In this document: one piece after another, positions 23,415 through 38,637 of the stretch
Numbering within the stretch: position 1 is the first letter of the stretch
How the letters are laid out: every line of letters starts with the position of its first letter
Source of the DNA: Thermodesulfovibrio sp. 3462-1
GTDB lineage: Bacteria; Nitrospirota; Thermodesulfovibrionia; Thermodesulfovibrionales; Thermodesulfovibrionaceae
Reading direction: 5' to 3'
Length of the DNA stretch: 64,000 bases
Assembly: GCF_040451425.1 (NCBI RefSeq)
Contig: NZ_CP144374.1
Span: 1,032,501 to 1,096,500, forward strand
Notes under the pieces: generated by a model
The model's database searches: none
What the model was told of the DNA's origin: nothing
The model's input: the letters and a program-made list of their open reading frames with translations, nothing else
Translations under genes and position numbers: made by a program

Positions 23415-23488
23415 TGCCCCCTGCAGGGATCGAACCTGCGACACCAGGTTTAGGAAACCTGTGCTCTATCCTACTGAGCTAAGGGGGC
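23415..23488 (-). tRNA. tRNA-Arg (anticodon CCT)
   Basis: 74 nt on the minus strand. The acceptor stem is GCCCCCT/AGGGGGC with discriminator A, the D arm is TAGCTCAGTAGGATAGAGC, the anticodon arm is CAGGT-TTCCTAA-ACCTG (anticodon CCT), and the T arm is GCAGG-TTCGATC-CCTGC. CCA is not encoded. Its 5' half (23448-23488) lies in the direct repeat that bounds the mobile element, so the sequence now upstream of the gene belongs to the element. Confidence 0.95.
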
Positions 23489-23491
23489 TAA
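23448..23491. repeat. Attachment-site repeat, left (in the intact tRNA-Arg)
   Basis: 44 bp identical to 38594-38637. It covers the tRNA from the anticodon loop to the 5' end plus 3 bp. Confidence 0.95.
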
Positions 23492-23598: not shown

Positions 23599-24675
23599 TC
23601 AAGATTGTTTTAACCCTTCAGAAGTGTTTTCTGAGGTGTTTTTCCTGGTATCCAGCAGTGTAATAAATTGTCTGAGACTCTCAGTGGAATGGTGTGCATA
23701 TCGCTGTGTACTAGATATATCTTTATGCCCAAGCAACTTTGCCACACTGTAAAGGTCAACGCCACACTGCACCAGTCGGGTTGCAAAAGTGTGCCTAAGG
23801 TCATGGAATGTAAATCCCTGGATACCTGCCTTAGCCAAAGCTTTGTAGAATTCCCTCATCAGGTTTCGTCTTAGGATGCTTTTTCCTGACTCTGTGTGAA
23901 AGACATATTCTGTCATTGTTACTACCTTTGATCTAGCCTTTCTCAGCAAAAGGAAATACACAGTATTATTCATTGGTATAGTCCTAGGCTCGTTGTTTTT
24001 GGTTTTTTCCACAGTTATAGTTTTCCGGAACAGATCTATGTGTCTCCACATAAGACTCAGGATCTCGGACTGCCGCATTCCTGTATGCAACGCCAATGTA
24101 ATTATGTCAGGTAGTTGCCCATTCAGATAACCCTGAGATGCACTCAATAATCGTTCCTCTTCCTCAGATGACAGATACCGTGTCCTGGTATTGTTCTCTG
24201 GAAGTGCCTGGACCTTTGCACAGGGGTTTTCCCTTACCCACTCCCACTGCCTCCAGGCAAGGTTGAATGCTATACTCAATGTTCTGAATTCCCTATTAAC
24301 CGTTGCCGGGGCCACACCCTGGTCAAGCCGTTGCTGCATGTAATTTGAAATCACCTTAGGTGTTATATCAGCCAGAAGCATACCACCTAACGCTTTTTTG
24401 AGATGTCTGATGGCTGATATATATCGTGTGTGGGTGGATGCCTTTTTCCGTGGTGCATGTTCTTTCAGGAATTTTTCCATGAGGTCATCAAAGGTGTGCT
24501 GCTTTGACTCATCAAGATCAAACCATTTACCTTCTGTTATTTGGGTGATAACTTTTGCATAAATTTTTTCCGCCAGTTTGTAACTTGATGTTCCTGTGGA
24601 TCTGTGATATTGTTTCCTATTATATGTGAAGGACATCCACCACATGGAAGAATCTTTTCTCTTGTAAAGTCCCAT
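23599..24675 (-). CDS. int: Tyrosine site-specific recombinase (integrase)
   Basis: 358 aa from the ATG at 24675, which follows AAAGGAG; the longer open frame upstream crosses the divergent promoter region. The N-terminal arm-binding part starts MGLYKRKDSSMWWMSFTYN, and a SAM-like core-binding domain follows at about 60-145. The catalytic residues are Arg201 (HTGMRQSEI), His291 and Arg294 (HDLRHTFATR), His317 (LGHKD) and Tyr326 (QRYAHH). It catalyses integration and excision at tRNA-Arg. The gene sits 108 bp from the left repeat, as expected for a tRNA-targeting integrase. Confidence 0.95.
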   Translation of the reverse strand: MGLYKRKDSSMWWMSFTYNRKQYHRSTGTSSYKLAEKIYAKVITQITEGKWFDLDESKQHTFDDLMEKFLKEHAPRKKASTHTRYISAIRHLKKALGGMLLADITPKVISNYMQQRLDQGVAPATVNREFRTLSIAFNLAWRQWEWVRENPCAKVQALPENNTRTRYLSSEEEERLLSASQGYLNGQLPDIITLALHTGMRQSEILSLMWRHIDLFRKTITVEKTKNNEPRTIPMNNTVYFLLLRKARSKVVTMTEYVFHTESGKSILRRNLMREFYKALAKAGIQGFTFHDLRHTFATRLVQCGVDLYSVAKLLGHKDISSTQRYAHHSTESLRQFITLLDTRKNTSENTSEGLKQS

Positions 24676-24700
24676 GGTACTCTCCTTTTGAAGGATTTCC

Positions 24701-24741
24701 CAGCAAACCCTCGTTGTCAAAGACCGGTTTGCTGGTATTAT
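24701..24741 (+). promoter_or_regulatory. Predicted promoter with overlapping inverted repeat, upstream of the element's plus-strand genes
   Basis: CAGCAAACC (24701-24709) and GGTTTGCTG (24726-24734) form 9-bp arms. They enclose TTGTCA at 24714-24719, which is spaced 16 bp from TATTAT at 24736-24741. The dyad over the -35 could be an operator between the integrase and the divergent genes. Confidence 0.5.
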
Positions 24742-24834
24742 ACCATACATATATATGCGTTTAAAATAACTTTTTTCCCAGGTGGCAGAAAAAACAGTGG
24801 ACAAAATGCATATTATTATTGAGGAGGTGAGGAT

Positions 24835-25170
24835 ATGGCAAATCTCAGGGAAATACTTGAGCAAAGGAAAGCAGAAAGAATTAAAAACACTACTCTTTTC
24901 TGGCGTCCCATCATAGGGGACGTGATGGAAGGAACAGTGGTGGATATCGGTTCAGTTATAACATCTCTTGGTGAGAGCAACTACATTGATGTAATGACTG
25001 ATACTGGGGAAATAGTGACAATCTGGTTGAACACTGTCCTGCAGGCACTAGTGGAAAAAGAAAAGGTGAAAAAAGGTGACAGAATAGCAGTGGAATACCT
25101 AGGTGTAAGATCCAAAAACAAAAAGATAGCACACAAAGAATATGTGATTGCTGTTGAACATACCTCTTGA
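24835..25170 (+). CDS. Small element protein, OB-fold-like
   Basis: 111 aa with a strong ribosome site (GAGGAGGTGAGG). After a charged helix (LREILEQRKAERIK) the pattern GDVMEGTVVDIGSV, YIDVMTDTGEIVTIWL, and VKKGDRIAVEYLG suggests a five-strand OB-type barrel as in single-strand nucleic-acid binding proteins of mobile elements. It is the first plus-strand gene of the element, before the sigma-like and RepA genes. A role in DNA replication or transfer is inference from fold and position. Confidence 0.6.
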   Translation: MANLREILEQRKAERIKNTTLFWRPIIGDVMEGTVVDIGSVITSLGESNYIDVMTDTGEIVTIWLNTVLQALVEKEKVKKGDRIAVEYLGVRSKNKKIAHKEYVIAVEHTS

Positions 25171-25196
25171 CATACTTTGCTTACGTATGTTACTAT
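25167..25196 (+). promoter_or_regulatory. Possible promoter
   Basis: TTGACA, 18-bp spacer, TACTAT, overlapping the stop of the previous gene. If used, it would drive the small basic ORF and the sigma-like gene. Confidence 0.45.
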
Positions 25197-25245
25197 GCAT
25201 ATAGTAGCCCTTGGCTACAAAGAAAAAAAACAAGAGAAAGGAGGT

Positions 25246-25395: not shown

Positions 25396-25502
25396 GAAAC
25401 AAAGCCTGTCCTACAGGCTCTCAAATCTGGGGAAGTGGAGGCAAAAATAGAAGTTACCCCATTTAATGGGGTTAAATCCCCCTACCTGGCCGAAAAAAGG
25501 CC
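25396..25502 (+). promoter_or_regulatory. Hairpin-rich leader before the sigma-like gene
   Basis: Three short perfect hairpins follow each other: GCCTGT-CCT-ACAGGC, ACCCCAT-TTA-ATGGGGT and GGCC-GAAAAAA-GGCC. None has a T-run, so they are not terminators. They may shape translation of the next gene, whose start lies at the foot of the last hairpin. Confidence 0.4.
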
Positions 25503-26018
25503 ATGGAAATGCAAGAAATCGACTGGCAGGAGATTGAAAACAGCGTAAAACCGTATTGTGTGGCAAGATGGAACGGAGATGGAGAGGATATCTACCATGA
25601 CGCTGTGGTAATACTTTTAGAAAAGATCCGGTCTGGTGAATTTGTATACTCTAGCAAAGAACAAACCATATCATATCTGTTAGAAACCGCAAAAAAAATA
25701 GCTCGTAAATACCAACATAGGGAAATACCCTTTTCAGCATTAGAAATTTCTGATTTTGCGGATTCCACAGATGTATCAGACAGGGTATGGGAAGCACTGG
25801 CAAAACTATCCCCTCAGAGCAGAACACTATTAGAAATGTGGTCACATGGGTACTCTATATGTGAAATCGCCGATGTGACGGGAATGACCTATAAACAGGT
25901 GTGGATGTATATAAATAGCGCACTACAGCTACTCAGAAAACACTTTGGCATATATACCACTTCATCTTCACATACAAATTCATCCTCACATGCAGAACAG
26001 CTAACACTATGGGGGTGA
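25503..26018 (+). CDS. Sigma-70-like regulator (region 2 and region 4 helix-turn-helix)
   Basis: 171 aa. The pattern is that of a small ECF-like sigma factor. An N-terminal helix bundle with DIYHDAVVILLEKIRSG and YLLETAKKIARKYQHR resembles region 2. A linker follows, then LSPQSRTLLEMWSHGYSICEIADVTGMTYKQVWMYI... fits region 4. Typical region 2 aromatic residues are not clear. The start may be either ATG (25503 or 25509); the ribosome site is weak. It lies 4 bp before the RepA gene. It could direct transcription of element genes, which would be unusual for a small mobilizable element. Confidence 0.65.
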   Translation: MEMQEIDWQEIENSVKPYCVARWNGDGEDIYHDAVVILLEKIRSGEFVYSSKEQTISYLLETAKKIARKYQHREIPFSALEISDFADSTDVSDRVWEALAKLSPQSRTLLEMWSHGYSICEIADVTGMTYKQVWMYINSALQLLRKHFGIYTTSSSHTNSSSHAEQLTLWG

Positions 26019-26022
26019 GAAA

Positions 26023-26904
26023 ATGCTAGAGCGGGTAAGCATTGCAGAAGCAAAAGAAGTGGAGATAGATTTCATTCTGCCAGGGTTGACTGCTGGGAGC
26101 GTAGGTATGCTGGCTGGCGCCCCTGGTGTGGGAAAAACTATGCTAGCTATGCAGATAGCTGTCGCAGTGGCAAGCGGAAGAGACGTGGCATACGGGCTAT
26201 GGAAAGTCCATGGGACAGGACCTGTCACAATGATATGTGCTGAAGAACCGGTAGATATACTGTGCAACAGGTTGCATTATATTAAACTGAGCGAAGGTAT
26301 TACACAGGAAGAAGCAGAAGACATAGATCTAAACCTACACATATACTCTGCGATGAAAATAGACACTCGCATAATTGTCACGTCCAAGGAAGGCCCAATA
26401 GAAGGGCCGTTTCTATCCACACTAAGACAACTGGCACTAAACCAAAGGCTCGTAATTTTAGACCCTTTGGTAATGTTCCACGATTGTAATGAAAATAACA
26501 ACGTAGAAATGTCATACCTGATGCGGGTTTTAAAAAACATATGCATAGAAACACAAACAACAATACTCCTGGTACACCACTTTCACAAAGGGGGTGCATA
26601 TGACAAATCATGGACAGCAGTTAGAGGTGCATCTGCTCTCACGGCGGCCGCCCGATGGCAGATGAACTGCTTCAACGAAATAGTGCCAAAAACCAATGTT
26701 CAGGTAGTGCGCTTGGAAATTGTGAAATCCAATTATGTTGGAAAGATACAAAAAGAGTGGACTATCAGAACCAACGAACATGGCGTATATGATGCTAGAC
26801 TCCCTATTCCTATGCCTGAAGACCTTGAAGACGATGAAAAACCTATAAAAAAAGTCAAAACTAACAAGTACAACGGAAGGTATGAAATATCTGAGGTGTT
26901 CTAA
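26023..26904 (+). CDS. RepA-type hexameric replicative helicase (RecA-like ATPase)
   Basis: 293 aa. Walker A GAPGVGKT at 32-39 is preceded by LTAGSVGMLA. VTMICAEEP, RLVILDPLVMF (Walker B) and TTILLVHHFHKGGAYDKSW follow, with VRGASALTAAARWQM after. This is the RSF1010 RepA/AAA_25 plan. These enzymes unwind DNA at a plasmid-type origin. A palindrome-rich gap of 600 bp follows immediately. No primase or RepC-like initiator is recognised nearby. It suggests that the excised element can replicate. Confidence 0.8.
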   Translation: MLERVSIAEAKEVEIDFILPGLTAGSVGMLAGAPGVGKTMLAMQIAVAVASGRDVAYGLWKVHGTGPVTMICAEEPVDILCNRLHYIKLSEGITQEEAEDIDLNLHIYSAMKIDTRIIVTSKEGPIEGPFLSTLRQLALNQRLVILDPLVMFHDCNENNNVEMSYLMRVLKNICIETQTTILLVHHFHKGGAYDKSWTAVRGASALTAAARWQMNCFNEIVPKTNVQVVRLEIVKSNYVGKIQKEWTIRTNEHGVYDARLPIPMPEDLEDDEKPIKKVKTNKYNGRYEISEVF

Positions 26905-27445
26905 CTTCCACAGGAGTGCCACAGTCCACCCTGTGGCACTCCAGAAGTAGAACCTGGCAGAACAAAACACTTGGCAGTTATCTCGAAAAGAGACACTTGG
27001 CAGTTATACCAAAAAGCCATCGTGTTGTGAAAAATGCACACATTTTAGGCATTTTAGCAATTTTTTAGGACATAAAAAATATATTTATATTTAAAATATA
27101 AATATATTTTTATAGCAGAGCACCCCTATTTAAAAAAGGGGTGCTCTGCTATAAATAAAAAAATAAAAATAAGGGGGGCGGTAAGGCTTACTTTAAAAGA
27201 GCCTTACCGCCCCCCTTTTAAAGAATTTTTTTTAAATACTCAAAAATAACAGGTTTACTCCATATTCATGGGTTTTACCCATATAAACAGGTATCACCAT
27301 ATACCCTGGAAATAGTGTAAAGCCATGTTTGTTTGATTTGCATAGCTACCAGATGAACGCCTGATGAAACCAAGCATGCTGTTTGGCACAGCCAGCCAGG
27401 CTCTCTTAACGAGAGCCTGGCTGGCTGTGCCTATGGTGCCATAGT
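26905..27445. other. Palindrome-rich presumed replication origin of the element
   Basis: The stretch has no gene but is dense in structure. There is a 12-bp-arm hairpin at 26913-26942. Two 15-bp direct repeats (ACACTTGGCAGTTAT, 26967 and 26993) are spaced 26 bp apart. A 37-bp A+T-only palindrome (27075-27111) directly abuts a 16-bp-arm hairpin (27111-27153). A 17-bp-arm G-tract hairpin lies at 27171-27217, and a perfect 21-bp-arm inverted repeat with a 5-nt loop at 27385-27431. Directly downstream of a RepA-type helicase gene, iteron-like repeats plus an A+T-rich unwinding zone and single-strand hairpins look like an origin. An oriT role for part of it is not excluded. Confidence 0.55.
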
Positions 27446-27510
27446 GTGTGATTATATTTGCCAGGAAAAAACCAAATGAAAAATGCATATATATAGAGAG
27501 GAGGTGCAAT

Positions 27511-27780
27511 ATGGAGGAAAAACTACTAACGTCTCAAGAAGTAGCTGAAATTCTAGGTATCACTATGCACAGACTTTATACCTGGACAGCACAAGGAAAA
27601 ATTCCTGTGATAAAGATATCCCGAAAGATGATACGTTTCAGATGGTCTGACATTGAGCAGTGGCTTCAAGAAAAAACAGTTTTACCGCAGGCACAGTGTA
27701 GAAACACCAGGAGTGTTGGTGGGAAAGGCGTAGATATAGACAGGATAGTTGAAAACGCTAAGAAGGAGGTGGGAATATGA
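27511..27780 (+). CDS. Excisionase-like helix-turn-helix protein (MerR/AlpA type)
   Basis: 89 aa from the ATG at 27511 after GAGGAGGTG. LLTSQEVAEILGITMHRLY and the wing GKIPVIKISRKMIRF, then SDIEQWL, form the helix-turn-helix 17/excisionase fold. Such proteins bend DNA near attachment sites or regulate transfer genes. It lies between the presumed origin and the relaxase gene rather than next to the integrase, so a regulatory role is equally possible. Its stop overlaps the next small gene (ATGA). Confidence 0.75.
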   Translation: MEEKLLTSQEVAEILGITMHRLYTWTAQGKIPVIKISRKMIRFRWSDIEQWLQEKTVLPQAQCRNTRSVGGKGVDIDRIVENAKKEVGI

Positions 27781-27914
27781 AAGAATTTGTGGAGCTTATG
27801 AAAGACAGAGAAGCCAGAAATAGAATAATACGACATGTGTTGCTGTGGAGCATTATCGGTATTGGAGGGTTACTGGCATTCTGGGTTTTTGTGTTTGTAA
27901 TGTTCTTGAGGTGA
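27777..27914 (+). CDS. 45-aa single-pass membrane protein
   Basis: The start ATG overlaps the stop of the excisionase-like gene (ATGA) and an AGGAGGTG ribosome site precedes it. Residues 1-20 are charged (MKEFVELMKDREARNR). Residues 21-44 form one hydrophobic helix ending in FLR. The relaxase gene starts 3 bp after its stop, so it is part of the transfer operon. No known family; short membrane peptides occur in many mobilization operons. Confidence 0.55.
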   Translation: MKEFVELMKDREARNRIIRHVLLWSIIGIGGLLAFWVFVFVMFLR

Positions 27915-27917
27915 TCG

Positions 27918-30900
27918 ATGGTAACAATAGGGCATGTATATGCTTCTATGACCGATTATGCCAAGGATAACTACTATTTACGGGATGAAACTACAGGCAA
28001 AATATCTGAACCAGAAAAAATTGGCGAAGGGTGGAAATACTTTGGTGACGTGCGCGTACGTATAGATGAGGGGGTATATAAAGCGTTGAAAAATGGTTGT
28101 TCCCCTGTCAACGGGGAACAGCTTGTTAAGGTTGGTGTAAATGGTGAACACCGCCCCGGGTGGGATATAGTTTTTGCTCCTCACAAAAGTTTTTCTGTCT
28201 ACGCCATGACTTCTCCAGAGAACCGCCAGTTGGTTCAGAAAATTCATGACATGGCGGTAGCAGATACATTGAATTATCTCGAAAAAAACCTTATTCAAGT
28301 GAAGCAAACACATGACGGTGTAACCATGCCCACTAAAACTGGCAACATGGTAGCTGTGAAGGTGGATCATACTGTGAATAGGGAAGGGGATGTAAACATT
28401 CATTCTCATGTGGTAATTTTCAACATGGCATACAATGAAAACACCGGCAAGTGGCAAGCTCTCCATTCTGACGCATTTCATTCTGATGTTTTGCAACGAG
28501 TATACGAAAACCAGTTGGCATATCATGCCAAACAGGTTGGGCTACCTGTTGCATTTGAACTGAGCCAGTCAGGGAAGAGTGAGTATACCACAATTGCTGG
28601 GATATCCCAGGAGGTTATAGAAGCTCATTCACAGCGTGTTGTTGAAATCAAAGAGTATTTGGAGAAAAACATGGTGGAGTTGCAAAAAAGATACCCAGAT
28701 GCTAGTATGGGTGAACTCAAGAGGATAGCTACTATTGAGACACGGCCAGAAAAAATACCAATGACCATGGAGCAAATCTTGCAACGGTTCGAGCAGAATA
28801 ACCAAACAATAGGCATAACCACGCAAGATATATTGCTCGGTGTAGAACGCGCAAAAGAACAGATGAAGGAATATATCCCAATGACCGCATATGAAATGGC
28901 TAAAACTGCTGCAGATGCGATAACTGAGCACCAGTCGGTTTTTTCACAGCAGGACTTAGTGAAGACAACAGTTAACCTTAGCAGAGGGGATGTCTCAGTC
29001 CACGATATAATGGCCACTATTAACGATATGAAGGATATTGTAATGCTCAAAAGTAGCGAGCTGGTTAAAAATGGTGGCAGAGTATATACTGATGCAATAT
29101 ACACCACTTTAGAAGTTCAGAAGGCTGAGAAAGATACCATCAGAATAGCCCGTTCAATGCAAAGTGATATAGTTATGTCCAAGGAAGATGTATCATCTTT
29201 CATTACACAGAAAGAGGCAGAAGGCGTAAAATATACAGAGTCACAAAAAGAGGCTATAGAACACATCCTAACCTCTGAAAATGGCGTGATACTCGTTCAG
29301 GGTGATGCAGGGACGGGAAAATCAACAGCCATGGCCGCAGTCCGAGAGAAGCTGGAGTCTATGGGATACACAGTGAGAGGTTTTGCACCAACGGGGAAAG
29401 CTACGGAGGAGCTGAGGATTAATGCTGGCGTTGAGAAGTCTCAAACATTGCATTCATTTTTGCATGGATACAAGCCTACTACTTCACCCCCAGTTGTTGC
29501 GGATAAAGAAGAATACGCCAGGATGGCATCTCGTTTATCCGAAAAAGAATGGGAGAAACTAAGACAGCCCGTGTCTGAAAAGGATTTACAGAATGCCATA
29601 AAAGGTAGTTGGTTTAAGGATACGCACCTTAAATATGACAGCGAGATAAAGGTTATGACAGTAAAGGCTGAAAAGAGCCTGTGGGATGTATGGAAAAATA
29701 GGGTTATGAATGAGTTCCGAAACTTTAAAAATGAGATACTATCTAAGATTGGCATGCAATCCACATATAGAGAGGTTAACAGAGAGTATATGGTATACAC
29801 CAAATATTCAGACGGCACTATCCATGCTGCATTGCAAAAAACCCACTGGGAAGTAGACCGGAAAGGAAATGTTTCATACACATCTACAACGTATCATCAA
29901 AACGGCGATATATATGTTTTCCAAAAAAGCACTATCGGAGGAGTAACCAGAGAAACATCTACGCTATACAGGAATCCGGCTAATGTCATAACAAAGGGGA
30001 AAGAAGTATGGATTCTAGACGAAGCCTCTATGGTTGGATCAAAACAGATGCACGAGTTGTTAAAGATAGCAAAAGAACAGAATGTCAAAGTCGTGCTGAT
30101 CGGAGATGTGAAACAGTTACAGGCAATTGAGCAGGGCCGGGTGTTTAAAGATTTACAGGAAAGGGCAGGGCTGAAGATTGTTGAAATGAAGGACTTGGTG
30201 AGGCAACAAGAAGAGAACTATAAGGCCACTGTTAAGGACTTCTCTGAAAAGAGGTTTGATGAGGCGTTCCGAAAATTGGAAAACAAAGGCCGGATTGTGG
30301 AAATAGCAGATAAAAATGACCGCATTACAGCTATTGTGCGTGACTACATTGCATCGCCAAAGGATACTATTGTGGTAACAGCTCTTAATGCCGACAAAGC
30401 GTGGCTGAATTCTGCCATTCATGCTGAGTTACAAAAGCAAGGCGTAGTGGATTCAAAGGAGTATACTTTCACCGTAAGGGAATCAAAAAATCTCAGTGCT
30501 CCAGACAAACTTTTGTCGCAAAATTATCAAGTGGGTGATGTGGTAATTTCTTCAAAGGCGGGTCTCATGGGCAGGGCAGGGACAGAGGGAAAAGTCATAG
30601 AAGTGGACTACCAAAATCACCGTATCACAGCAATCACGAAGGACGGGAAAACCTATCAGATTGACCTCAGGCGTGATGGCGATAAGTTAGCAGTTTATGC
30701 TGAAAAAGAGCAATCCTTTGCAAAAGGCGAGCGGATAGTTTTTCAGAAAAATGACCGAGGCCTTGAGGTAAAGAACGGGCAGGTGGGGGAATTGAAGAGT
30801 ATTGATGCAGATGGCAGGGTAACAGTCAAGATGCAGGATGGAACGGAGAAAAAATTTAACCTAGTCACTCAGTATAACTACATCGACCGAGGCTATGCCG

Positions 30901-31160
30901 TGACCGCATACAAGAGCCAAGGTCAGACAGCTGAACGGGTAATTTACCACGCTGACACTGAAAAAGGAGTGAACTACAACGAGGCCTACGTTGCCCTAAC
31001 AAGGGGGAAAACTGATATACGGATATATACAGACAGCAAGGAGAGATTCACTGAGCAAATGAAAAACGAGGTGACTAAATCCAGCACCCTGGATTACGCA
31101 AAAGAAACTAGCTGTCAAACTGAAAAGGGTTATAGCTCCGGGCGGGACAGGGAACTGTAA
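27918..31160 (+). CDS. MobF-family conjugative relaxase-helicase (TrwC/TraI type)
   Basis: 1080 aa. The N-terminal relaxase domain has the Tyr pair at 19-20 (DNYYLRD), the APHKSFSVYA variant of the PKS motif, and the metal-binding His triad (His151, then IHSHVVIFN at 161-169). The C-terminal superfamily 1 helicase has Walker A GDAGTGKST at 462-470, Walker B VWILDEASM at about 697 and a final VTAYKSQGQTA and ALTRGK. It nicks oriT, attaches covalently to the strand and unwinds it for transfer. A region of roughly 170 aa (about 518-690) between the Walker A and B motifs is much longer than usual and matches nothing I know. Confidence 0.93.
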   Translation: MVTIGHVYASMTDYAKDNYYLRDETTGKISEPEKIGEGWKYFGDVRVRIDEGVYKALKNGCSPVNGEQLVKVGVNGEHRPGWDIVFAPHKSFSVYAMTSPENRQLVQKIHDMAVADTLNYLEKNLIQVKQTHDGVTMPTKTGNMVAVKVDHTVNREGDVNIHSHVVIFNMAYNENTGKWQALHSDAFHSDVLQRVYENQLAYHAKQVGLPVAFELSQSGKSEYTTIAGISQEVIEAHSQRVVEIKEYLEKNMVELQKRYPDASMGELKRIATIETRPEKIPMTMEQILQRFEQNNQTIGITTQDILLGVERAKEQMKEYIPMTAYEMAKTAADAITEHQSVFSQQDLVKTTVNLSRGDVSVHDIMATINDMKDIVMLKSSELVKNGGRVYTDAIYTTLEVQKAEKDTIRIARSMQSDIVMSKEDVSSFITQKEAEGVKYTESQKEAIEHILTSENGVILVQGDAGTGKSTAMAAVREKLESMGYTVRGFAPTGKATEELRINAGVEKSQTLHSFLHGYKPTTSPPVVADKEEYARMASRLSEKEWEKLRQPVSEKDLQNAIKGSWFKDTHLKYDSEIKVMTVKAEKSLWDVWKNRVMNEFRNFKNEILSKIGMQSTYREVNREYMVYTKYSDGTIHAALQKTHWEVDRKGNVSYTSTTYHQNGDIYVFQKSTIGGVTRETSTLYRNPANVITKGKEVWILDEASMVGSKQMHELLKIAKEQNVKVVLIGDVKQLQAIEQGRVFKDLQERAGLKIVEMKDLVRQQEENYKATVKDFSEKRFDEAFRKLENKGRIVEIADKNDRITAIVRDYIASPKDTIVVTALNADKAWLNSAIHAELQKQGVVDSKEYTFTVRESKNLSAPDKLLSQNYQVGDVVISSKAGLMGRAGTEGKVIEVDYQNHRITAITKDGKTYQIDLRRDGDKLAVYAEKEQSFAKGERIVFQKNDRGLEVKNGQVGELKSIDADGRVTVKMQDGTEKKFNLVTQYNYIDRGYAVTAYKSQGQTAERVIYHADTEKGVNYNEAYVALTRGKTDIRIYTDSKERFTEQMKNEVTKSSTLDYAKETSCQTEKGYSSGRDREL

Positions 31161-31718
31161 CAAATATGGTTATCTGCAAACTAGCAGAATTGTGCATTTG
31201 CACATTTTTGCTATAGTTTTACTCCTGACATGTGGAAATAATTTCCACATGTCAACCGTCTTTTGCTGAGGCTACCGCACCGTGACGAAATAATTTCGTC
31301 ACGGAAGTTTTACCTTGATTTGTCAAGCACTTTAGTCAGAACCCATCAGATCGTATGCTATACCTATCGGAAGGGCTGTTTTTTCTGTTCCTCTTCCATG
31401 GTTTTCTCCTGATCCCGTGCATGCCGAAATTCCTGTGTGCCTCCTCTTTCTTTGTTTTCTCCTATCTCCCGCTTCAGCAATGACACCCAACGCAACTGAC
31501 CGTTGCATCTAGTGCCAGCACTGTTGCCTGTTTTTATAGGTATTTCCTGTAGTTGCAGTACTGGCACCTTGCCAGTATGCCAGTCCAAAATACATAGTGC
31601 ACCACCAGAATAGACAAGGCTTTTTATAGTGCCAGCACTTTTAAGTGCATCCATGCCAGCATTGCTGGCAGGGAAAAAATACTGTTTTTGGTGCATATAT
31701 ATTGTAGGAGGTGAAGAA
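31161..31718. other. Presumed origin of transfer region with repeated palindromes
   Basis: This is a gene-free gap between the relaxase and RHH genes. Two near-perfect palindromes share a core (GAAATAATTTC) and differ in flanks: arms of 14 bp at 31226-31254 and 12 bp at 31280-31304. Further on, a family of TGCCAG/CTGGCA dyads follows: AGTGCCAGCACT at 31511 and 31628, TACTGGCA-CCT-TGCCAGTA at 31559-31577, and TGCCAGCA-T-TGCTGGCA at 31654-31670. In IncW plasmids oriT lies directly before the RHH gene trwA, the same context as here. The dyads could be relaxase or RHH binding sites. The nick site cannot be placed. Confidence 0.5.
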
Positions 31719-32018
31719 ATGGCAAAGAAGGTAACAGTGCGATTTTCAGATTCCGAGTGGCAAAGGATCACGGAAGCAACAGTTGGTAAAAATCCAACAG
31801 AAATGGTGCGATATCTGATTGAGCTTGGTTTACGAAAAAATGAGGATAACATATCAGAAGTGGTGGCTGTTATGGCACAGCTTGAAGGTGCTATGCGTAG
31901 TATGACTAAGGATGTGGTGTGGATTAAGACATTTTTGAGGCTTTTTCTGGAAATGCAACCATCTTTTGGCCAATCTCGTATTCGTGAATTTGAGAGAAAG
32001 CTAGGTATAGAAGAGTGA
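31719..32018 (+). CDS. Ribbon-helix-helix relaxosome accessory protein (TrwA/TraY/MobC-like)
   Basis: 99 aa from the ATG at 31719 after GTAGGAGGTG. The N-terminus KKVTVRFSDSEWQRITEAT, then GKNPTEMVRYLIELGL, is the beta strand plus two helices of an RHH DNA-binding fold. A predicted helical C-terminus follows. Its position directly after the dyad-rich gap and before a coupling-protein gene parallels trwA, whose product binds oriT, aids the relaxase and represses its own operon. The family match is by fold pattern and context. Confidence 0.7.
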   Translation: MAKKVTVRFSDSEWQRITEATVGKNPTEMVRYLIELGLRKNEDNISEVVAVMAQLEGAMRSMTKDVVWIKTFLRLFLEMQPSFGQSRIREFERKLGIEE

Positions 32019-32025
32019 ACTTCTT

Positions 32026-32050
32026 AAGAAAGGAGGTGATGAAAAGTGAA
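32026..32050 (+). repeat. Duplicated translation-start module, copy 1
   Basis: 25 bp, including a complete anti-16S match (AAAGGAGGTGAT) and the GTG start of the following gene, are identical to 34207-34231. Confidence 0.7.
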
Positions 32051-32228
32051 AAAGAAGACTCCCCAGGAGTTGCGGGAAATGGCCAAAAAGTTTCTTGAGG
32101 AAGCTAAGAAGATTGAAGAGGCACAGGCTGCGAAATTGGGCAAAGTAATCATGTCCATCAAGGATATTGAGAATACTCCAGCGGAGGTAATAAAAGAAGC
32201 AGTGATGAGAGCTTTAGGTAAGTCCTGA
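32046..32228 (+). CDS. 60-aa helical protein, possible small mobilization accessory protein
   Basis: GTG start after the full ribosome site AAAGGAGGTGAT. The peptide is nearly all helix: KTPQELREMAKKFLEEAKKI, EEAQAAKLGKVIMSI, then TPAEVIKEAVMRALGKS. The EEAQAAKLGKVI block resembles the short TraD/MobC-type accessory proteins of some plasmids, but similarity is weak. It lies between the RHH and coupling-protein genes. Confidence 0.55.
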   Translation: MKKKTPQELREMAKKFLEEAKKIEEAQAAKLGKVIMSIKDIENTPAEVIKEAVMRALGKS

Positions 32229-32289
32229 CCCTAGCAATATAGAAGACTTTGTCTTCATGTTAGGGCAGGCATTTTATAGGGGGGGTAAT

Positions 32290-32505
32290 ATGTATATCGA
32301 CATAATAGACATGGTAATTGAAGATTTAAACTTTTTTAGGGGTTTTGATCATAAAAAATTGGACACTATTTTTAAAAAATACGGCCTAGAAGTGGTAGAT
32401 GATGAGCACATTCAGAATGCATGTATACTTACGTTGGCAGGAGGAAATGATCTATTTAAAATAGTGTATATCAAACCAAAAAAACGGTGGTATGTTGCGA
32501 GGTAA
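32290..32505 (+). CDS. 71-aa hypothetical element protein
   Basis: ATG at 32290 after a G-rich ribosome site (AGGGGGGG). The sequence MYIDIIDMVIEDLNFFRGFD begins it and KIVYIKPKKRWYVAR ends it. No signal peptide or known motif. The end lies 1 bp before the coupling-protein start, so it is in the transfer operon. Function unknown. Confidence 0.55.
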   Translation: MYIDIIDMVIEDLNFFRGFDHKKLDTIFKKYGLEVVDDEHIQNACILTLAGGNDLFKIVYIKPKKRWYVAR

Positions 32506-32506
32506 C

Positions 32507-34180
32507 ATGCGACAGGAGAAACAGGAGACATTCAAGGGTTTTGAAACTTGGCTATCAGCTTTAAAAATGCGGGCGAAGATGGTGACGTATGTCACCATCG
32601 CTTTTCTTTTTGCGCACATGGTGATAACACTGCTGCTTAGTTACATCATGTATAGGACAACATGGTCACTTGTTATAAAGTATGCCTGGAGTAGTCTGTC
32701 TCATTTCACATGGCCGTCTGCACTACTCCCTGCTTTGTTGGTGTTGCTTAAAAAAAGCATATGGATATTTGCTATGTCCTTTTGGTTATGGTTGCTGTTT
32801 CCATTTGCAATACGTTATTTCAAACACCGGGCAGAGAAACAAGCAGAAGATGTTTACATACGAGGGGCGAGAGTTTTGGATAGAGACGAGATACAGAGAA
32901 TGATTAAAGAAGAATGTGATCTACCACTTGGATCGTTTAAAATGCCGGTTTCTGCAGAGGTAAAACACATGTTTATCGTTGGAAGGCCAGGTGTCGGAAA
33001 AACTGTGGCTTTATCCCAGGTGATAGAGCGGTTGAAAGAGAGGAAGGTAAAGGGTGTGATATATGATTTCAAAGGTGACTATGTATCTAAATTTTATGAT
33101 CCATCCACCGATATCTTGTTTAATCCTCTTGACACACGCTGCCTGGGATGGAACATTTTTAATGAAATATCCACCCATATGGATATAGATGCTGTGGCAC
33201 ACTCACTTATCCCACCTCCATACATGGCCGATCCGTTTTGGAACGACGCAGCCAGAGATGTTTTTGCTGGGATATTACACTACTTATGGCAAAACAACGC
33301 GAAAACAAATATGGATATATGGAATGCTGTGACTGCCCCGGGGGGAGATATAGCTATCTGGCTTAAGAATACCAAAGGTGGAGAAAGAGGCTATCGCTAT
33401 ATAGAGGATGCCAGCAGTAAACAGGCGATGTCTGTGTTTGCAGTGATGATGCAGTATGTAAAGAGTTTTGAGTTTATGGCCCGTGCGGGCGGTGATTTTT
33501 CCATCCGCAGGTGGCTGGAGGATCCGCAAGGCGGGTTTATATTCATTACTAGCTACAGCGATATCAAGGATACCTTGAGACCTATTTTGTCATTGTTTTT
33601 GGACCTGATGGGACGCAAATTGCTGTCGCTGCCTGATGATTTGAACAGACGTATTTTTTTCATCATTGATGAGTTTGGAACACTGCAAAGGCTATCTACT
33701 ATTGTTCAGTTGTTAACCTTATCCCGAAGCAAAGGCGGTAGTGTTTGGGTGGGCATCCAGGACGTAGGGCAGTTAGACAAGATATACACACCTGCCCTCA
33801 GACAGGCCATAGTGAATGCGTGCGGTAGCAACCTTGTATTTAGCGTAGCTGACCCGGAGACTGCCAGGTTTTTGAGTGAAAAAATAGGCGAGGCTGAAGT
33901 CATACGACCTGAGGAAGGATATTCCATGGGACCTGAAGATATGAGGGATGGTATCTCGATACAGCGGAGACGTGTAACGGAAAAGGTTGTCTTACCATCG
34001 GAGCTTCAGAACATACCAGACCTGACTGCCTTTTTAAAGTTGCCAAACTACCCCTGGACCCAAACCAAGTTCACATACAAACACTACCCTACCAAAAATC
34101 CGTCGTTTATCATGAAACCAGACTTTGTCTTGGACATGCAGGCAATTAAAGAACCTGAACTGGAGGAAAAAGAATGTTGA
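32507..34180 (+). CDS. Type IV coupling protein (TraD/TrwB/VirD4 family)
   Basis: 557 aa from the ATG at 32507 (GAGG ribosome site); another ATG lies 15 bp earlier. Two N-terminal membrane regions cover about residues 27-50 and 72-104. The ATPase has Walker A GRPGVGKT at about 159, GVIYDFKGDYVSKFYD, LFNPLD and Walker B FFIIDEFGTL, and later LTLSRSKGGSVWVGIQDVGQ. These proteins dock the relaxosome to a secretion channel and pump DNA. No channel genes are seen in the element, so it would need a host- or helper-encoded apparatus. Confidence 0.92.
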   Translation: MRQEKQETFKGFETWLSALKMRAKMVTYVTIAFLFAHMVITLLLSYIMYRTTWSLVIKYAWSSLSHFTWPSALLPALLVLLKKSIWIFAMSFWLWLLFPFAIRYFKHRAEKQAEDVYIRGARVLDRDEIQRMIKEECDLPLGSFKMPVSAEVKHMFIVGRPGVGKTVALSQVIERLKERKVKGVIYDFKGDYVSKFYDPSTDILFNPLDTRCLGWNIFNEISTHMDIDAVAHSLIPPPYMADPFWNDAARDVFAGILHYLWQNNAKTNMDIWNAVTAPGGDIAIWLKNTKGGERGYRYIEDASSKQAMSVFAVMMQYVKSFEFMARAGGDFSIRRWLEDPQGGFIFITSYSDIKDTLRPILSLFLDLMGRKLLSLPDDLNRRIFFIIDEFGTLQRLSTIVQLLTLSRSKGGSVWVGIQDVGQLDKIYTPALRQAIVNACGSNLVFSVADPETARFLSEKIGEAEVIRPEEGYSMGPEDMRDGISIQRRRVTEKVVLPSELQNIPDLTAFLKLPNYPWTQTKFTYKHYPTKNPSFIMKPDFVLDMQAIKEPELEEKEC

Positions 34181-34206
34181 AACCTGCATATATTTATTAG
34201 AAACAC

Positions 34207-34231
34207 AAGAAAGGAGGTGATGAAAAGTGAA
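34207..34231 (+). repeat. Duplicated translation-start module, copy 2
   Basis: Identical over 25 bp to 32026-32050; contains the ribosome site and GTG start of the following gene. Confidence 0.7.
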
Positions 34232-34598
34232 GGTGAATGTGTTAGACATGATAGGTATAGGGATATTTGTGATGGCAGTGCTATTGCTTGGTATTGCTTT
34301 TGCTTTCGCTGATGACACGAATTACAAAATACCATGCACATACTGGGCTAAGACCCCTGGGTTTTTAGGGGTAAAGTCAAAACATAGTGCAGATTTTACA
34401 ATTTTTGCTAACGTGAGACCTGTGTTAGAAAATGCCACAAAAATCTTTCAAGGGATGCTAACTGAACCAAACATGAAGGAGTTCCAGATGGCACTTACGC
34501 GAGTGCATACCGATGTAGGAAGCAAAAAGCCAACTGAAGCTGGTGTAACATGCAAGTTTGAAGATGGAGATTTCATAATTCAAGCTACTAGGCGTTAG
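34227..34598 (+). CDS. 123-aa exported protein of unknown function (cassette gene 1)
   Basis: GTG start in the duplicated start module. A hydrophobic N-terminus (about residues 7-28, MIGIGIFVMAVLLLGIAFAF) with ADD after it is a signal peptide or anchor. The mature part has two Cys (IPCTYWAK and VTCKFEDGD) that could pair in the periplasm. It is followed by an inverted repeat (GGTGCGGTT/AACCGCACC) of roughly 9-bp arms. First of five consecutive genes for exported or membrane proteins. No family recognised. Confidence 0.6.
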   Translation: MKVNVLDMIGIGIFVMAVLLLGIAFAFADDTNYKIPCTYWAKTPGFLGVKSKHSADFTIFANVRPVLENATKIFQGMLTEPNMKEFQMALTRVHTDVGSKKPTEAGVTCKFEDGDFIIQATRR

Positions 34599-34663
34599 CC
34601 TATTCAAGGTGCGGTTAAAACCAAAACCGCACCTTGAAAAACTTTTTAAAGGGGAGGTATTAT

Positions 34664-35746
34664 ATGTTTAAAAAGAAAATAACAATAGTGCTAACTATAT
34701 TGCTTCTGACTGTCCCTGTTTTTGCTATGGATACAAACGTTGACACGGGTAAATTTAAAAAGCATGGCAAAGAGCAATCACAAACACAGAAAAAAACGTT
34801 GGAACAGAAAACGAGCAAGGGTAGAAAAAGAGCACATACTCAGGCTACAGGAACAGAAACAATAGAAAGCCAGAGTGATAAACAGGCATGGCAGGATACT
34901 ACAGGGGCAGGGGCGGAGATAACACTACCACTTGAGGCGGTTTTTATGGATCGCATTGCTACTCTTGAATCTGAAACCGGAACTATGTTTAATGCTTGCA
35001 AGTTGGTTACACACCCCTTAACACCGTATGATTTAGGTTTAAATGTCGAGGCAGGTTACGGTATAATAGATGCCATAAAAGCACAATACTACAATATGGC
35101 AGGACAAAATTATATGCCTGTAGGAGATGTAGTAGATGAAAGTAAAATCCGACAATACAGAGATTGCATGGCATTCTATGGTGCTGTGATTGCTCAGGCG
35201 TATCTATATCTTACACAGGACCTTTCGTCCCTTAAGGCCTCTCTTTCCAGAGGCACAAACACCGTGGTAAAAGGTATCGGATATGATGATTTTGTGACAC
35301 TTGCAAATGCTGCACTGGATAGAGCCGTATATGGTGGAATTACGAATAAAACGATAAAACGTATATATGAACGAATACTACAGGACAATAGCTCTTGTGT
35401 TTTTCAAGGGCAACCAAATGTTGTGAAATGTGGATCCACCCAGATTACGATTCAAACCATCCCTCAGCTAATCGCATACGGGATAGAGTGGTATGGCACA
35501 AAATTTGCAGGATACCATGGTAGTTTTAAGGTTAACAGAGCCTGGAGCTACTTAGCATCTTTGGAGCAATCCAAAACCAACTCAAAGTATGCACGCTGGA
35601 TAGATGAAGTAACCAAGTATATAGAGGAGTTAGAAAGTCAAGGTAAGACAAAAGAAGCAACGCTGGTGAGGAAAAAAGCAGTAGAGATTGTTAAAAGTGG
35701 TAAACAAACAGTATCACCATCTTTTCTTTTGTCAGGAATTCACTAG
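34664..35746 (+). CDS. 360-aa secreted protein of unknown function (cassette gene 2)
   Basis: ATG at 34664 after GGGGAGG. A clear Sec signal peptide (FKKKITIVLTILLLTVPVFA-M) precedes a charged low-complexity stretch (about residues 25-80, rich in Lys, Gln, Thr). The folded part carries four Cys: FNACKLV, YRDCMAF, SSCVFQG and VVKCGS. The second half is helical (TNSKYARWIDEVTKYIEELE). It has no lipobox and no catalytic motif I can name. The position in the transfer gene run suggests an envelope task in transfer or host interaction. Confidence 0.65.
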   Translation: MFKKKITIVLTILLLTVPVFAMDTNVDTGKFKKHGKEQSQTQKKTLEQKTSKGRKRAHTQATGTETIESQSDKQAWQDTTGAGAEITLPLEAVFMDRIATLESETGTMFNACKLVTHPLTPYDLGLNVEAGYGIIDAIKAQYYNMAGQNYMPVGDVVDESKIRQYRDCMAFYGAVIAQAYLYLTQDLSSLKASLSRGTNTVVKGIGYDDFVTLANAALDRAVYGGITNKTIKRIYERILQDNSSCVFQGQPNVVKCGSTQITIQTIPQLIAYGIEWYGTKFAGYHGSFKVNRAWSYLASLEQSKTNSKYARWIDEVTKYIEELESQGKTKEATLVRKKAVEIVKSGKQTVSPSFLLSGIH

Positions 35747-35756
35747 GAGGTGAGAT

Positions 35757-36077
35757 ATGGGAACACTTATCAAAATTATGATAGTCACCGCTCCTGTTTT
35801 GGCCATAATTTTTTACTATGTTGTTATTAAACAGAGTCAGATAGATGTGGAAGTAAAGACTGAGGATGCACAATTTGAACGGGTTTGGAATGAAACGGAA
35901 ATGGATTTGGCCAAAACACAGGAGCAAAAACAAAAATACGCAGAGAGGGCCAAGGAAGCAGACGCAGAATTACAATCGCTCAAAGCTAAGGAAAAGGAAC
36001 GAGAGCAAAAAACTATGGAATTTGAAAAGGAATTTGAAAAACAAATGAAAGATTTTGAAAAAGAACATAAAAAATAG
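35757..36077 (+). CDS. 106-aa membrane-anchored coiled-coil protein (cassette gene 3)
   Basis: ATG after AGGAGGTGAG. One membrane segment covers about residues 5-25 (IKIMIVTAPVLAIIFYYVVI). Residues 40-106 form an uninterrupted, highly charged coiled coil (EQKQKYAERAKEADAELQSL and so on). The architecture is that of small scaffold or spacer proteins in envelope machines. Its 3' end overlaps the next open frame upstream of that gene's likely start. Unknown family. Confidence 0.65.
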   Translation: MGTLIKIMIVTAPVLAIIFYYVVIKQSQIDVEVKTEDAQFERVWNETEMDLAKTQEQKQKYAERAKEADAELQSLKAKEKEREQKTMEFEKEFEKQMKDFEKEHKK

Positions 36078-36087
36078 GAGGTGTAAA

Positions 36088-37230
36088 ATGAAAAGATTTT
36101 TGATAATAGTATGTTTAGTTGTCATAGTTAGTGGGTGTTCTCTACCTTCTTTTGCTTATAAACCAGATCCTATCTTTGAATCTCCTAATCTGAAAATCAT
36201 ACGTGGAGGTCATTGTTATGCTCCAGATTATTTTAAGTTTAATAAACAGAAAAACTATTGGGAATGTCCCACACCTGGTAAACTTTTTAGAGATTATAGA
36301 CGGTATGGTTGCACAGCTGCCATAAAATTTGACCGTGATATAGTAGGTTTGTTTCGAGGATTAATATTTGACAGAGTGCCATCTGGAGTAGGAATCCCAG
36401 GTGCTTTTTGTTACTTTACTGATGAATTCTATGAAGGACAAGCGGTATATGACAAACAAACCGGTTTTTTAGTAGTGATGCCATATGTGATCAAAACTCC
36501 ACTATGCTATGTGTATGGACCTACTACACAACGAGGGTGTTTTGCAGTGTTCTATCCAGCAAAAAACCATATGAAACTCTTTTTATTAAGAGGCAATATG
36601 AAAAAGATATTTGACTTTTTGGTAGATAACTTTGATTCTCTATATGAGGTTAATAAAATTATGGATGAAAGGCTTAAACGGTTTCTTAAACCAAAAGAAA
36701 AAAACGAGGAAAAAGACAGTAATGTCTTTAAAGAGTTGTATCAGAAAATAAAGGAATCTCATATGTCACTGTTTTGTGCAGACCACCAATTAAAACTTAA
36801 CGAAAATCTCTATTCAATAGATGATCCACAATTTTCACAATGTCTTTCTACGTATTTTGGAGGATATACTAGAGTGGCAGGACCAAAAAATATTGAAGAG
36901 GCTACTGTGGTAATGCTTCTCGAAAACATAAATGCTATCATGAAATACAAAGAGGATTATCTATATGAACCAGGGAAAAGCTATATACTGAAACACATTG
37001 CGCCAGATGTTATATATCTAGTTCACTCAATCAATGACCAATTTGATTCAAATATACCGCTATGGAGAAAAAATCTGTTGCAGTGGCTTAAAGACAATAT
37101 CAAAATGGATTTGTACGGCGACAATATTTATAGGGATAAACCTATTGATATTGATCCTGTTGAGCTTATAAAAAAGCTTAGAACACTAAATCCAGATACA
37201 TTGTTTACTCCAAGAAAGGAGGGAAAATGA
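36088..37230 (+). CDS. 380-aa Cys-rich lipoprotein of unknown function (cassette gene 4)
   Basis: ATG at 36088 after AGGAGGTG. The lipoprotein signal MKRFLIIVCLVVIVSGC has a good lipobox (VSGC). The mature protein holds at least eight more Cys (GGHCYAPD, YWECPTPG, YGCTAA, GAFCYFTD, TPLCYVYG, RGCFAVFY, LFCADHQ, SQCLSTY), pointing to a disulfide-rich periplasmic or surface fold. No known domain. The stop overlaps the start of the next gene (ATGA). Confidence 0.65.
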   Translation: MKRFLIIVCLVVIVSGCSLPSFAYKPDPIFESPNLKIIRGGHCYAPDYFKFNKQKNYWECPTPGKLFRDYRRYGCTAAIKFDRDIVGLFRGLIFDRVPSGVGIPGAFCYFTDEFYEGQAVYDKQTGFLVVMPYVIKTPLCYVYGPTTQRGCFAVFYPAKNHMKLFLLRGNMKKIFDFLVDNFDSLYEVNKIMDERLKRFLKPKEKNEEKDSNVFKELYQKIKESHMSLFCADHQLKLNENLYSIDDPQFSQCLSTYFGGYTRVAGPKNIEEATVVMLLENINAIMKYKEDYLYEPGKSYILKHIAPDVIYLVHSINDQFDSNIPLWRKNLLQWLKDNIKMDLYGDNIYRDKPIDIDPVELIKKLRTLNPDTLFTPRKEGK

Positions 37231-38294
37231 TTTTATTTGTGTTAGTGATAATTTCATTGTTAATGTTTTGTAACACTACATTTGCTGGGTGGGATGCTAT
37301 TATTCAGGATGTTCATAAAGAACAGGAACACATAATGCAAGAACAAAAAGAAGCAGAAAAGGAAGTAGAACGAATAGGTAAAGAAGGTCTGTTTGAAAAA
37401 ATGGTTAAAGATTATCTTACACAACCATCAATAGATATGTCTTATGAGGACAAATTCTTAGCAGCAGTAGAAATTGGTAGATATATTACTGCGCATAAAA
37501 TATGTATACAAAAACAAAAGAATAATCCTGATGCAGTAAAAAAGTGTGCTGAAGAAATTGAAAAGGCACGGAAAGAAAGAAAGGGAGGTTGTGTGGATCT
37601 AAAGCGGGTATCGTTTTTAATCGGAGTAGTACGTGCCGAAGAGGCACGCATTAGATCTCTTGGAAAATCTTGTATAAAAGCAACAAGTGGAGATGAAAAA
37701 TTGATACAATGTAAGATAGCACAGGAAACGTTAAAGCTAACAAACGAAAGAGCAACGTTTAACTTCTTTTTAGGTACAGGGACAGTACCAACTGAAATTG
37801 GCGATGTAATTTTTGGAGCACCATTTAAAGTTACACAAATACATTCTTTTCCTGTTTCTGGGATAGTATACGACATAGTAGTGAATGGTGGGGTGATAAC
37901 TATGCTTGTGCCTACCACAAAATATTACATCACTATAAAGACTATGCAAGACGTTATGGCCTCTCCTACTTTAATGCCAAAAGATATTACCGGGGAAATA
38001 ATCGATTTTTCCATGCCCTTTAACCTTTCTGAAGCTAAAACCATCATAACTCCTGCAAAAGGATTTTCTATGGATACCAAAGCTGTAATAGACGTCATGA
38101 ATGAAATGATTAGAAACACTAATATCTTCTGCTATCTTTCTTTTGAAGAAATCTTGACCTCCGAGAAATCCAGGAATGCTTTAGTCGAAAGTATGATAGA
38201 ATATCTAACCTATCCTAATTATCTCGCTAGATTAGAAGGAACCGCCGGGAAAGCCCACCCCTTCAAAGGTAAGATGAAATCACTAAAACACTAA
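37227..38294 (+). CDS. 355-aa secreted protein of unknown function (cassette gene 5)
   Basis: ATG overlapping the previous stop, with AAAGGAGGG before it. Signal peptide MILFVLVIISLLMFCNTTFA-G. A helical, charged region (about residues 22-120) with several Cys (KICIQK, KKCAEE, GGCVDL, KSCIKA, IQCKIA) leads into a probably beta-rich part (GIVYDIVVNGGVITMLVPTT) and a final helical domain with one more Cys. No lipobox and no family match. Followed by a terminator hairpin, which ends the transfer transcript. Confidence 0.65.
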   Translation: MILFVLVIISLLMFCNTTFAGWDAIIQDVHKEQEHIMQEQKEAEKEVERIGKEGLFEKMVKDYLTQPSIDMSYEDKFLAAVEIGRYITAHKICIQKQKNNPDAVKKCAEEIEKARKERKGGCVDLKRVSFLIGVVRAEEARIRSLGKSCIKATSGDEKLIQCKIAQETLKLTNERATFNFFLGTGTVPTEIGDVIFGAPFKVTQIHSFPVSGIVYDIVVNGGVITMLVPTTKYYITIKTMQDVMASPTLMPKDITGEIIDFSMPFNLSEAKTIITPAKGFSMDTKAVIDVMNEMIRNTNIFCYLSFEEILTSEKSRNALVESMIEYLTYPNYLARLEGTAGKAHPFKGKMKSLKH

Positions 38295-38309
38295 CTCTGG
38301 TGCCACAGG
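38291..38309 (+). repeat. Direct repeat at element right end, copy 1
   Basis: CTAACTCTGGTGCCACAGG recurs at 38435-38453. In the first copy it is continued by GTTTACCT and a right arm that closes a hairpin. In the second the same loop follows in reverse-complement form (AGGTAAACCCT) and the right arm is missing. Confidence 0.6.
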
Positions 38310-38324
38310 GTTTACCTGTGGCAC
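38300..38324 (+). terminator. Terminator-like hairpin after the exported-gene cassette
   Basis: GTGCCACAGG and CCTGTGGCAC form perfect 10-bp arms with a GTTTA loop right after the stop of cassette gene 5. The T-run is weak, so the call is moderate. Confidence 0.5.
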
Positions 38325-38434
38325 TTCTGAATGCGTAGAATGCCCTTATTTTCGTTTTTTTGTGTGGGAGTATAGGATAATATTCCCCAAGGTAAAAAAT
38401 CGATTCTAGGGGCATTGTAGCAATCCACAATGCG

Positions 38435-38453
38435 CTAACTCTGGTGCCACAGG
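38435..38453 (+). repeat. Direct repeat at element right end, copy 2
   Basis: Second copy of the 19-bp repeat at 38291. The gene-free stretch 38325-38593 between cassette and right att repeat also holds an inverted repeat GCATTGT/ACAATGC at about 38413-38433. Confidence 0.6.
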
Positions 38454-38465
38454 TAAACCCTAATA

Positions 38466-38485
38466 CACTGTAATAAAACCGTAAT
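38466..38485 (+). repeat. Possible integrase arm-type site, right
   Basis: One mismatch to 23532-23551, same orientation, 108 bp inside the right att repeat. Confidence 0.5.
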
Positions 38486-38593
38486 TATATCACCACATAC
38501 TAACGGAATACTAACATATTCTTAGCAATATGAAAATACATACAATTTGGCTAAAAATAAGGATTTTTGAGGGTTTGCTGGGATTGTTCTATT

Positions 38594-38637
38594 GTTTAGG
38601 AAACCTGTGCTCTATCCTACTGAGCTAAGGGGGCTAA
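38594..38637. repeat. Attachment-site repeat, right (truncated tRNA-Arg 5' half)
   Basis: 44 bp identical to 23448-23491. It is a 5' half of tRNA-Arg without its 3' half. On the minus strand, TATAAT lies just upstream of it, at about 38643-38648, which looks like the -10 of the original tRNA promoter. Confidence 0.95.

Follow-up and report, generated by a model that had tools for sequence, protein, structure and literature searches.

The stretch of DNA analysed here (the window: 64,000 nucleotides of the complete 1.82-Mb chromosome of Thermodesulfovibrio sp. 3462-1, contig NZ_CP144374.1, positions 1,032,501 to 1,096,500) carries a 15,146-bp integrated element at 23448–38593. The right part of this element is occupied by five consecutive same-strand genes, g1 to g5 (34227–38294), that follow the gene of a type IV coupling protein (T4CP). 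A first-pass annotation, made from the letters alone, had singled these genes out as exported or membrane proteins of no nameable family, and both their arrangement and their placement at the end of a mobilizable element were borne out. Two of the five recur beside T4CP genes in other elements from several bacterial phyla. This suggests that such elements carry an undescribed, interchangeable set of envelope proteins that helps them pass from cell to cell.

Gene starts were corrected, and a Shine-Dalgarno sequence is found at each (Table 1; g1 starts with GTG and g2 with ATG). The genes had been described as partly overlapping, which holds for g4 and g5 (4 nt) and for no other pair, g3 and g4 included. 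Signal peptides, lipobox, lipidation and topology were read from the sequence by inspection and agree with the protein types first proposed for all five genes. None of them has a credible match in Pfam, NCBIfam, PHROGs or PADLOC, and literature searches found no description of the gene set. Weak Pfam and NCBIfam matches of g3 were dismissed as coiled-coil noise, and its likeness to F TrbI (E = 0.58) vanished in hhalign. Phage structural or secretion proteins were also considered and rejected, as no PHROG, phage-record or viral-contig match was obtained. Across 176 genomes of the order no credible relative was found for g4 or g5, a first genome scan with g5 was likewise empty, and a single-sequence structure model of g4 was not usable (predicted local distance difference test, pLDDT, 39). 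The GC content at third codon positions is host-like in g4 (0.26) and g5 (0.28), as against 0.34 in g2 and g3 and 0.44–0.47 in the MobF relaxase and T4CP genes, and therefore suggests that at least g4 and g5 were acquired separately.

The element is an integrative mobilizable element (IME) of the MOBF type with its own T4CP, because it combines an integrase, attachment repeats and an empty site in a congener with a MOBF relaxase and a T4CP, and has no ATPase of a mating-pair formation (MPF) apparatus. Its ends are a perfect 44-bp direct repeat (100% identical), both copies of which map to a single 44-bp stretch (L145:1631-1674) in the congener G052. There, an intact tRNA-Arg gene runs directly into the lytic-transglycosylase-like gene that lies to the right of the element in the window. 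As had been noted for VirB- and TraG-like genes, Pfam and NCBIfam searches of the element's proteins found no MPF gene of the VirB/Tra apparatus, and the VirB4/TraC/TraG P-loop domain (PF19044) has no match anywhere in the complete host chromosome. With no VirB4-type ATPase in either the element or the chromosome, a helper is therefore needed unless a new apparatus exists.

A search with g2 in 296 genomes of the phylum gave relatives in two genomes, G087 and G057. Many related elements came from a T4CP search of the 176 genomes of the order and from public genomes scanned with a T4CP alignment, and they were then put through gene calling and clustering. Over a dozen additional genomes carry members of the g2 family, and the five-gene observation is therefore beyond chance. 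Family members are present in Nitrospirota (the window, FK3.bin35, G057 and G351, with remnants in G302 and G317), in a deltaproteobacterial metagenome-assembled genome (MAG; L064), in a Desulfurellales MAG (L065, broken by stops) and in Campylobacterota (L066, L067, L069 and L109–L114). The share of carriers was 6 of 176 genomes in the order, 8 of 397 in the phylum to which one Campylobacterales carrier belongs and 2 of 395 in that of the genome with L064. Many of the relatives are MAG contigs, and the searches for weak homology rested on few sequences. Plasmid searches gave one relative only, on pSULKU01 of Sulfuricurvum kujiense.

Most complete g2 neighbourhoods include a T4CP and a MobF relaxase within a few genes, plus two or three other exported proteins. 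Proteins of the g3 type were found in L027, L031, L047, L064, L065 and L113; in Campylobacterota a short membrane protein resembling them lies before or next to g2, its homology to the window-type g3 group not being established. Small exported proteins with two cysteines also follow the T4CP in related elements, and their homology to g1 is likewise not established. Resemblance of g5 to partner proteins of L005 (220 aa), L006 (244 aa) and L031 (248 aa) was plausible by eye and was discarded after it failed a leave-one-out profile test with controls. As judged by sequence comparison, the conserved core consists of g2 and a g3-type protein, and the accessories g4, g5 and, for the most part, g1 vary between elements. 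The first-pass annotation had asked whether the set recurs with MobF elements; the core does, beside MobF and T4CP genes elsewhere, but no recurrence of the exact five-gene order was found, since g4 and g5 lack credible relatives in the order.

Several g2 elements carry further genes of their own. On pSULKU01 (L114 8947-10905; NC_014754 73446-75404) the g2-family gene overlaps a gene resembling exbD (PF02472, below cut-off) and lies next to one of the MotA/TolQ/ExbB kind (PF01618, E = 8.7e-18), and the T4CP is truncated. Five Campylobacterota g2 elements (L066, L069, L109, L110 and L111) encode an additional TrwB-like ATPase that is distantly related to the window T4CP (about 25% identity); in most of them a ParA-like ATPase and a membrane protein rich in Gly are encoded too. 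A ParM-like actin-type gene, recognised by inspection, lies just upstream of the T4CP gene in the sister elements L005 (6895-7863) and L027 (11816-12793) and is absent from the window element.

The g2 protein has a Ser/Thr/Lys/Gln-rich, disordered neck (about residues 9–63) after its signal peptide and a confident alpha/beta domain (about 80–345). An alignment of 15 sequences includes two nearly invariant cysteines, C245 and C256, and G283 (numbering of the window protein). The AlphaFold2 model has a mean pLDDT of 74, with values mostly of 85–96 at residues 90–340 except around residue 200, where they dip; the neck is disordered. Foldseek found no match to this model in PDB or BFVD at E ≤ 0.001, the VIA-align rows (Z 6.3 over 68 residues, a designed helical protein) were chance-sized, and the family profile had no credible sequence match in PDB. 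T4-lysozyme-like PDB sequence matches (best E = 0.009) were reproduced neither by the family profile nor by the fold search and were set aside. Compared with Tra proteins, g2 showed no sequence homology and no fold match at E ≤ 0.001, searches that a distant relation may escape. The profile searches and structure prediction that had been called for detected no homology to type IV secretion system (T4SS) or phage structural components, and g2 may have a novel fold. A 604-aa homologue (L005 731-2545) has an insertion of about 240 residues between the neck and the main domain.

The g2 family appears to be tied to the T4CP. Over nine elements carrying both, g2 and T4CP distances correlate (Mantel Spearman rho 0.67, p 0.0002), a correlation confounded by host phylogeny. 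The elements of G057 (contigs C63 and C111, which overlap by exactly 77 bp and were read as one element) and G166 have relaxases and integrases that are 100% identical, while a host gene of these two congeneric species is 76% identical; by these identities the element therefore crossed the species boundary very recently. The two T4CPs share 87% identity, and the exported genes between the two conserved flanks are unrelated: a lipoprotein of 307 aa, a 244-aa protein and a g2-family protein of 295 aa in G057, and proteins of 419 aa and 316 aa in G166. G166 and G075 form the reverse mosaic, with the ribbon-helix-helix gene, the T4CP gene and the 419-aa exported gene 99–100% identical and the relaxase 78–85%. 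Judged by these mosaics, the three genomes have undergone very recent interspecies transfer and recombination, and it is the T4CP, not the relaxase, that the exported genes accompany. Segments of the three elements (L033 in G166, L032 in G075, L036+L006 in G057) are 99–100% identical across three species whose host DNA is about 75% identical. The 419-aa protein resembles g2 by eye, a candidate relationship that hhalign rated at only 0.3% and that was dropped.

The same slot can be filled differently. The gene right after the T4CP encodes an F-type TraG_N protein in L026 (PF07916, E = 1.5e-31) and in L054 (E = 2.2e-52), whose T4CPs are 65% and 49% identical to that of the window, respectively. 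L054 1742-12238, from a Nitrospinota MAG, is a short element with only MobF, T4CP, a 1126-aa TraG_N protein and an integrase, and by its gene content seems to be an IME carrying a lone TraG. The post-T4CP slot can therefore hold a true mating-apparatus subunit.

Table 1 Features of the integrative mobilizable element and its integration site (window coordinates).
Feature	Coordinates	Strand	Evidence or remarks
tRNA-Arg (anticodon CCT), integration target	23415..23488	-	ARAGORN; Rfam RF00005
attL, 44-bp direct repeat	23448..23491	.	tRNA-Arg(CCT) 5' half and 3 nt upstream; repeat search and empty site
Tyrosine integrase	23599..24864	-	phrog_1 integrase, E=3e-79
Small conserved protein, 111 aa	24835..25170	+	family common to several related elements; 7-member sequence cluster; no family match
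Sigma-70 region-4-like regulator	25503..26018	+	TIGR02937 E=4e-8, PF08281 E=1.5e-5
RepA/DnaB-like AAA ATPase	26023..26904	+	PF13481 E=1.6e-26
Excisionase-type helix-turn-helix protein	27511..27780	+	phrog_66 E=3e-11
MobF (TrwC/TraI) relaxase-helicase	27918..31160	+	PF08751 E=8e-53; NF041492 MobF 152.9 bits, cut-off 100
Small ribbon-helix-helix-like accessory protein	31719..32018	+	by inspection of reading frame; no Pfam match
T4CP, TrwB / F-type TraD-like coupling ATPase	32507..34180	+	PF10412 E=1.6e-104; TIGR02759 TraD_Ftype E=7e-105
g1, small exported protein, 123 aa, 2 Cys	34227..34598	+	predicted cleavable signal peptide; no credible family
g2, exported protein, 360 aa, core gene	34664..35746	+	predicted signal peptide, neck, alpha/beta domain; 15-member alignment, AlphaFold2 model
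g3, 106 aa, core gene	35757..36077	+	N-terminal membrane segment and coiled coil; homologues in related elements
g4, Cys-rich lipoprotein, 380 aa, accessory	36088..37230	+	lipobox VSGC by inspection; 10 Cys
g5, exported protein, 355 aa, accessory	37227..38294	+	predicted signal peptide; 7 Cys
Strongly folding stretch	38295..38470	.	between g5 and attR; 18-nt perfect inverted repeat; folding z -7.65
attR, second 44-bp copy, right element end	38594..38637	.	repeat search and empty site

The element has a GC content of 0.41, compared with 0.35 for the host. Its insertion in the 5' half of the tRNA-Arg gene (23415-23491) places it upstream of the tRNA, with the original promoter side displaced. 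A cluster of inverted repeats with arms of 18–39 nt (27075-27431), upstream of the excisionase and MobF genes, is a candidate origin of transfer. The folding stretch after g5 also contains repeated TGGTGCCACAGG, perhaps integrase arm sites.

The first-pass annotation had left three roles side by side for the five genes: a surface device for recipient contact, entry exclusion and a minimal transfer apparatus. The evidence favours a partner of the T4CP and the mating apparatus over the latter two. We infer that g1–g5 form an exchangeable cassette of envelope proteins connecting the element's own T4CP with the apparatus of a helper and with the mating junction, a tentative reading to which we give somewhat less than an even chance. 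In such a cassette g3 would be anchored in the inner membrane, g2 would lie in the periplasm with its flexible neck as a tether, g4 would be an outer-membrane lipoprotein, and g1 and g5 would act as periplasmic or surface partners. Together with the T4CP, the cassette would couple the element's relaxosome to a mating apparatus, probably of the F type, that is borrowed from a helper, and it would set or stabilise the mating junction, a job done in SGI1 by TraN, TraH and TraG. What speaks for this is the recurrence of the g2 family beside MobF and T4CP genes in several phyla, usually with a g3-type protein and two or three other exported proteins, along with the co-divergence of g2 and T4CP, the replacement of cassettes, the presence of TraG_N in the slot, the lack of a VirB4-type ATPase in element and host chromosome and the precedents of SGI1 and the IncP island. 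Several observations weigh against it: the host yielded no F-type helper system; hhalign comparison of the five proteins with TraG, TraH, TraN and other R100 Tra proteins, made with single sequences and of low sensitivity, gave noise-level scores and no homology; the T4CP survey also returned elements in which no g2 was detected; the host-phylogeny confounding mentioned above affects the distance correlation; and the exported genes adjoin the T4CP gene, so that linkage alone could explain their joint travel.

The main rival is surface or entry exclusion, in which the cassette would act in the recipient, with g4 and its partners barring the entry of related elements or of helpers of those elements, and cassette replacement would reflect different exclusion groups. 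Non-homologous replacement in otherwise near-identical elements fits such immunity groups, g4 has a lipobox (by inspection), and a known IME with MOBF relaxase and T4CP, IEVchAut1, encodes a functional surface-exclusion lipoprotein, Sfx (PMC11493245). However, single-sequence hhalign comparisons, which have low sensitivity, linked neither g4 nor any other protein tested with Sfx, TraT or TraS, and a role in transfer accords better with a core that is kept in different phyla and diverges together with the T4CP. Exclusion usually takes one or two small proteins, not three to five, and we consider this explanation rather unlikely. The genes could also be cargo, that is, surface or envelope proteins that benefit the host through adhesion, stress or phage resistance and have no role in DNA transfer. 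Element ends often hold cargo, and the host-like composition of g4 and g5 and their lack of relatives in the order would agree with it, but the recurrence of the g2/g3 core with T4CP and MobF across phyla and its co-divergence with the T4CP do not, and PADLOC shows no defence family of note; a cargo role is unlikely.

A self-sufficient minimal apparatus would have the T4CP, g3 in the inner membrane, g2 in the periplasm and the lipoprotein carry DNA across the envelope without a T4SS, with small outer-membrane barrels also taking part in some elements. It gains a little from the genomes carrying g2, 14 of 17 of which have no match over cut-off to PF19044 (VirB4/TraC-type ATPase), from the very recent movement of related elements between species, and from the barrel-like exported proteins of some g2 elements and the ExbB/ExbD-like proteins beside g2 on pSULKU01. 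Yet barrels and ExbBD-like genes are confined to a minority of elements and are absent from the window element, IMEs often reside in genomes that lack their helper, and we know of no Gram-negative conjugation without MPF. We regard this explanation as unlikely, a little more so than cargo. Least likely of all is the wider proposition that MobF/T4CP elements in several phyla have a conjugation apparatus of another kind, new to Gram-negative bacteria, in which a compact complex with g2 and g3 at its core takes DNA across the cell envelope, driven by the T4CP as motor and without a T4SS.

The general view is that most mobilizable elements rely on a borrowed mating apparatus; except for SGI1 and the IncP islands, little is known of how they adapt to foreign machines. 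The g2 protein, a conserved exported family with a confident model, no matching fold and replaceable cassettes around it, offers a marker for MobF/T4CP elements in several phyla. The cassette provides a concrete set of proteins for questions of helper choice, mating-pair stabilisation or exclusion, and the g2 elements can serve to examine if a helper is truly required in genomes that lack any VirB4-type ATPase.

Among known systems, SGI1 replaces TraN, TraH and TraG of its IncC helper, which improves its own transfer and evades exclusion, and both SGI1 and the IncP island remodel helper systems with MPF subunits of their own (PMC5389848; PMC5704250). Like SGI1, the window element is an integrated mobilizable element without its own T4SS, has an F-type context and encodes exported and membrane proteins that are proposed here to act at the mating apparatus. 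Unlike the window element, with its MobF, T4CP and proteins of no detectable MPF homology, SGI1 has recognisable TraN, TraH and TraG homologues and neither a T4CP nor a MobF of its own. Pfam, NCBIfam and hhalign searches found no homologues of these helper proteins among g1–g5, which are not of the SGI1 type; a similar mode of action is possible. The IncP island (TrbJ/TrbK/TrbL; PMC5704250) is likewise an IME with envelope proteins thought to subvert a helper MPF, but its proteins are recognisable P-type MPF subunits. The T4CP–TraG_N IMEs (L026, which is G274, and L054) share a related T4CP and the same post-T4CP slot, filled by an F-type TraG homologue where the window has the g1–g5 type set. 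IMEs like IEVchAut1, which has a MOBF relaxase, its own T4CP and the functional surface-exclusion lipoprotein Sfx (PMC11493245), share the relaxase type, the T4CP, an exported lipoprotein and the lack of MPF; they differ in that no similarity of g4 to Sfx was detected and that the exported set of the window comprises several genes, with g2/g3 as conserved core. Because none of the five proteins matches a Tra protein or Sfx by sequence, the element is assigned only to the IMEs with MobF and T4CP. By analogy, the set may be likened to SGI1 in its gene position and the tie of its core to the T4CP, and to IEVchAut1 in its lipoprotein and in cassette replacement.

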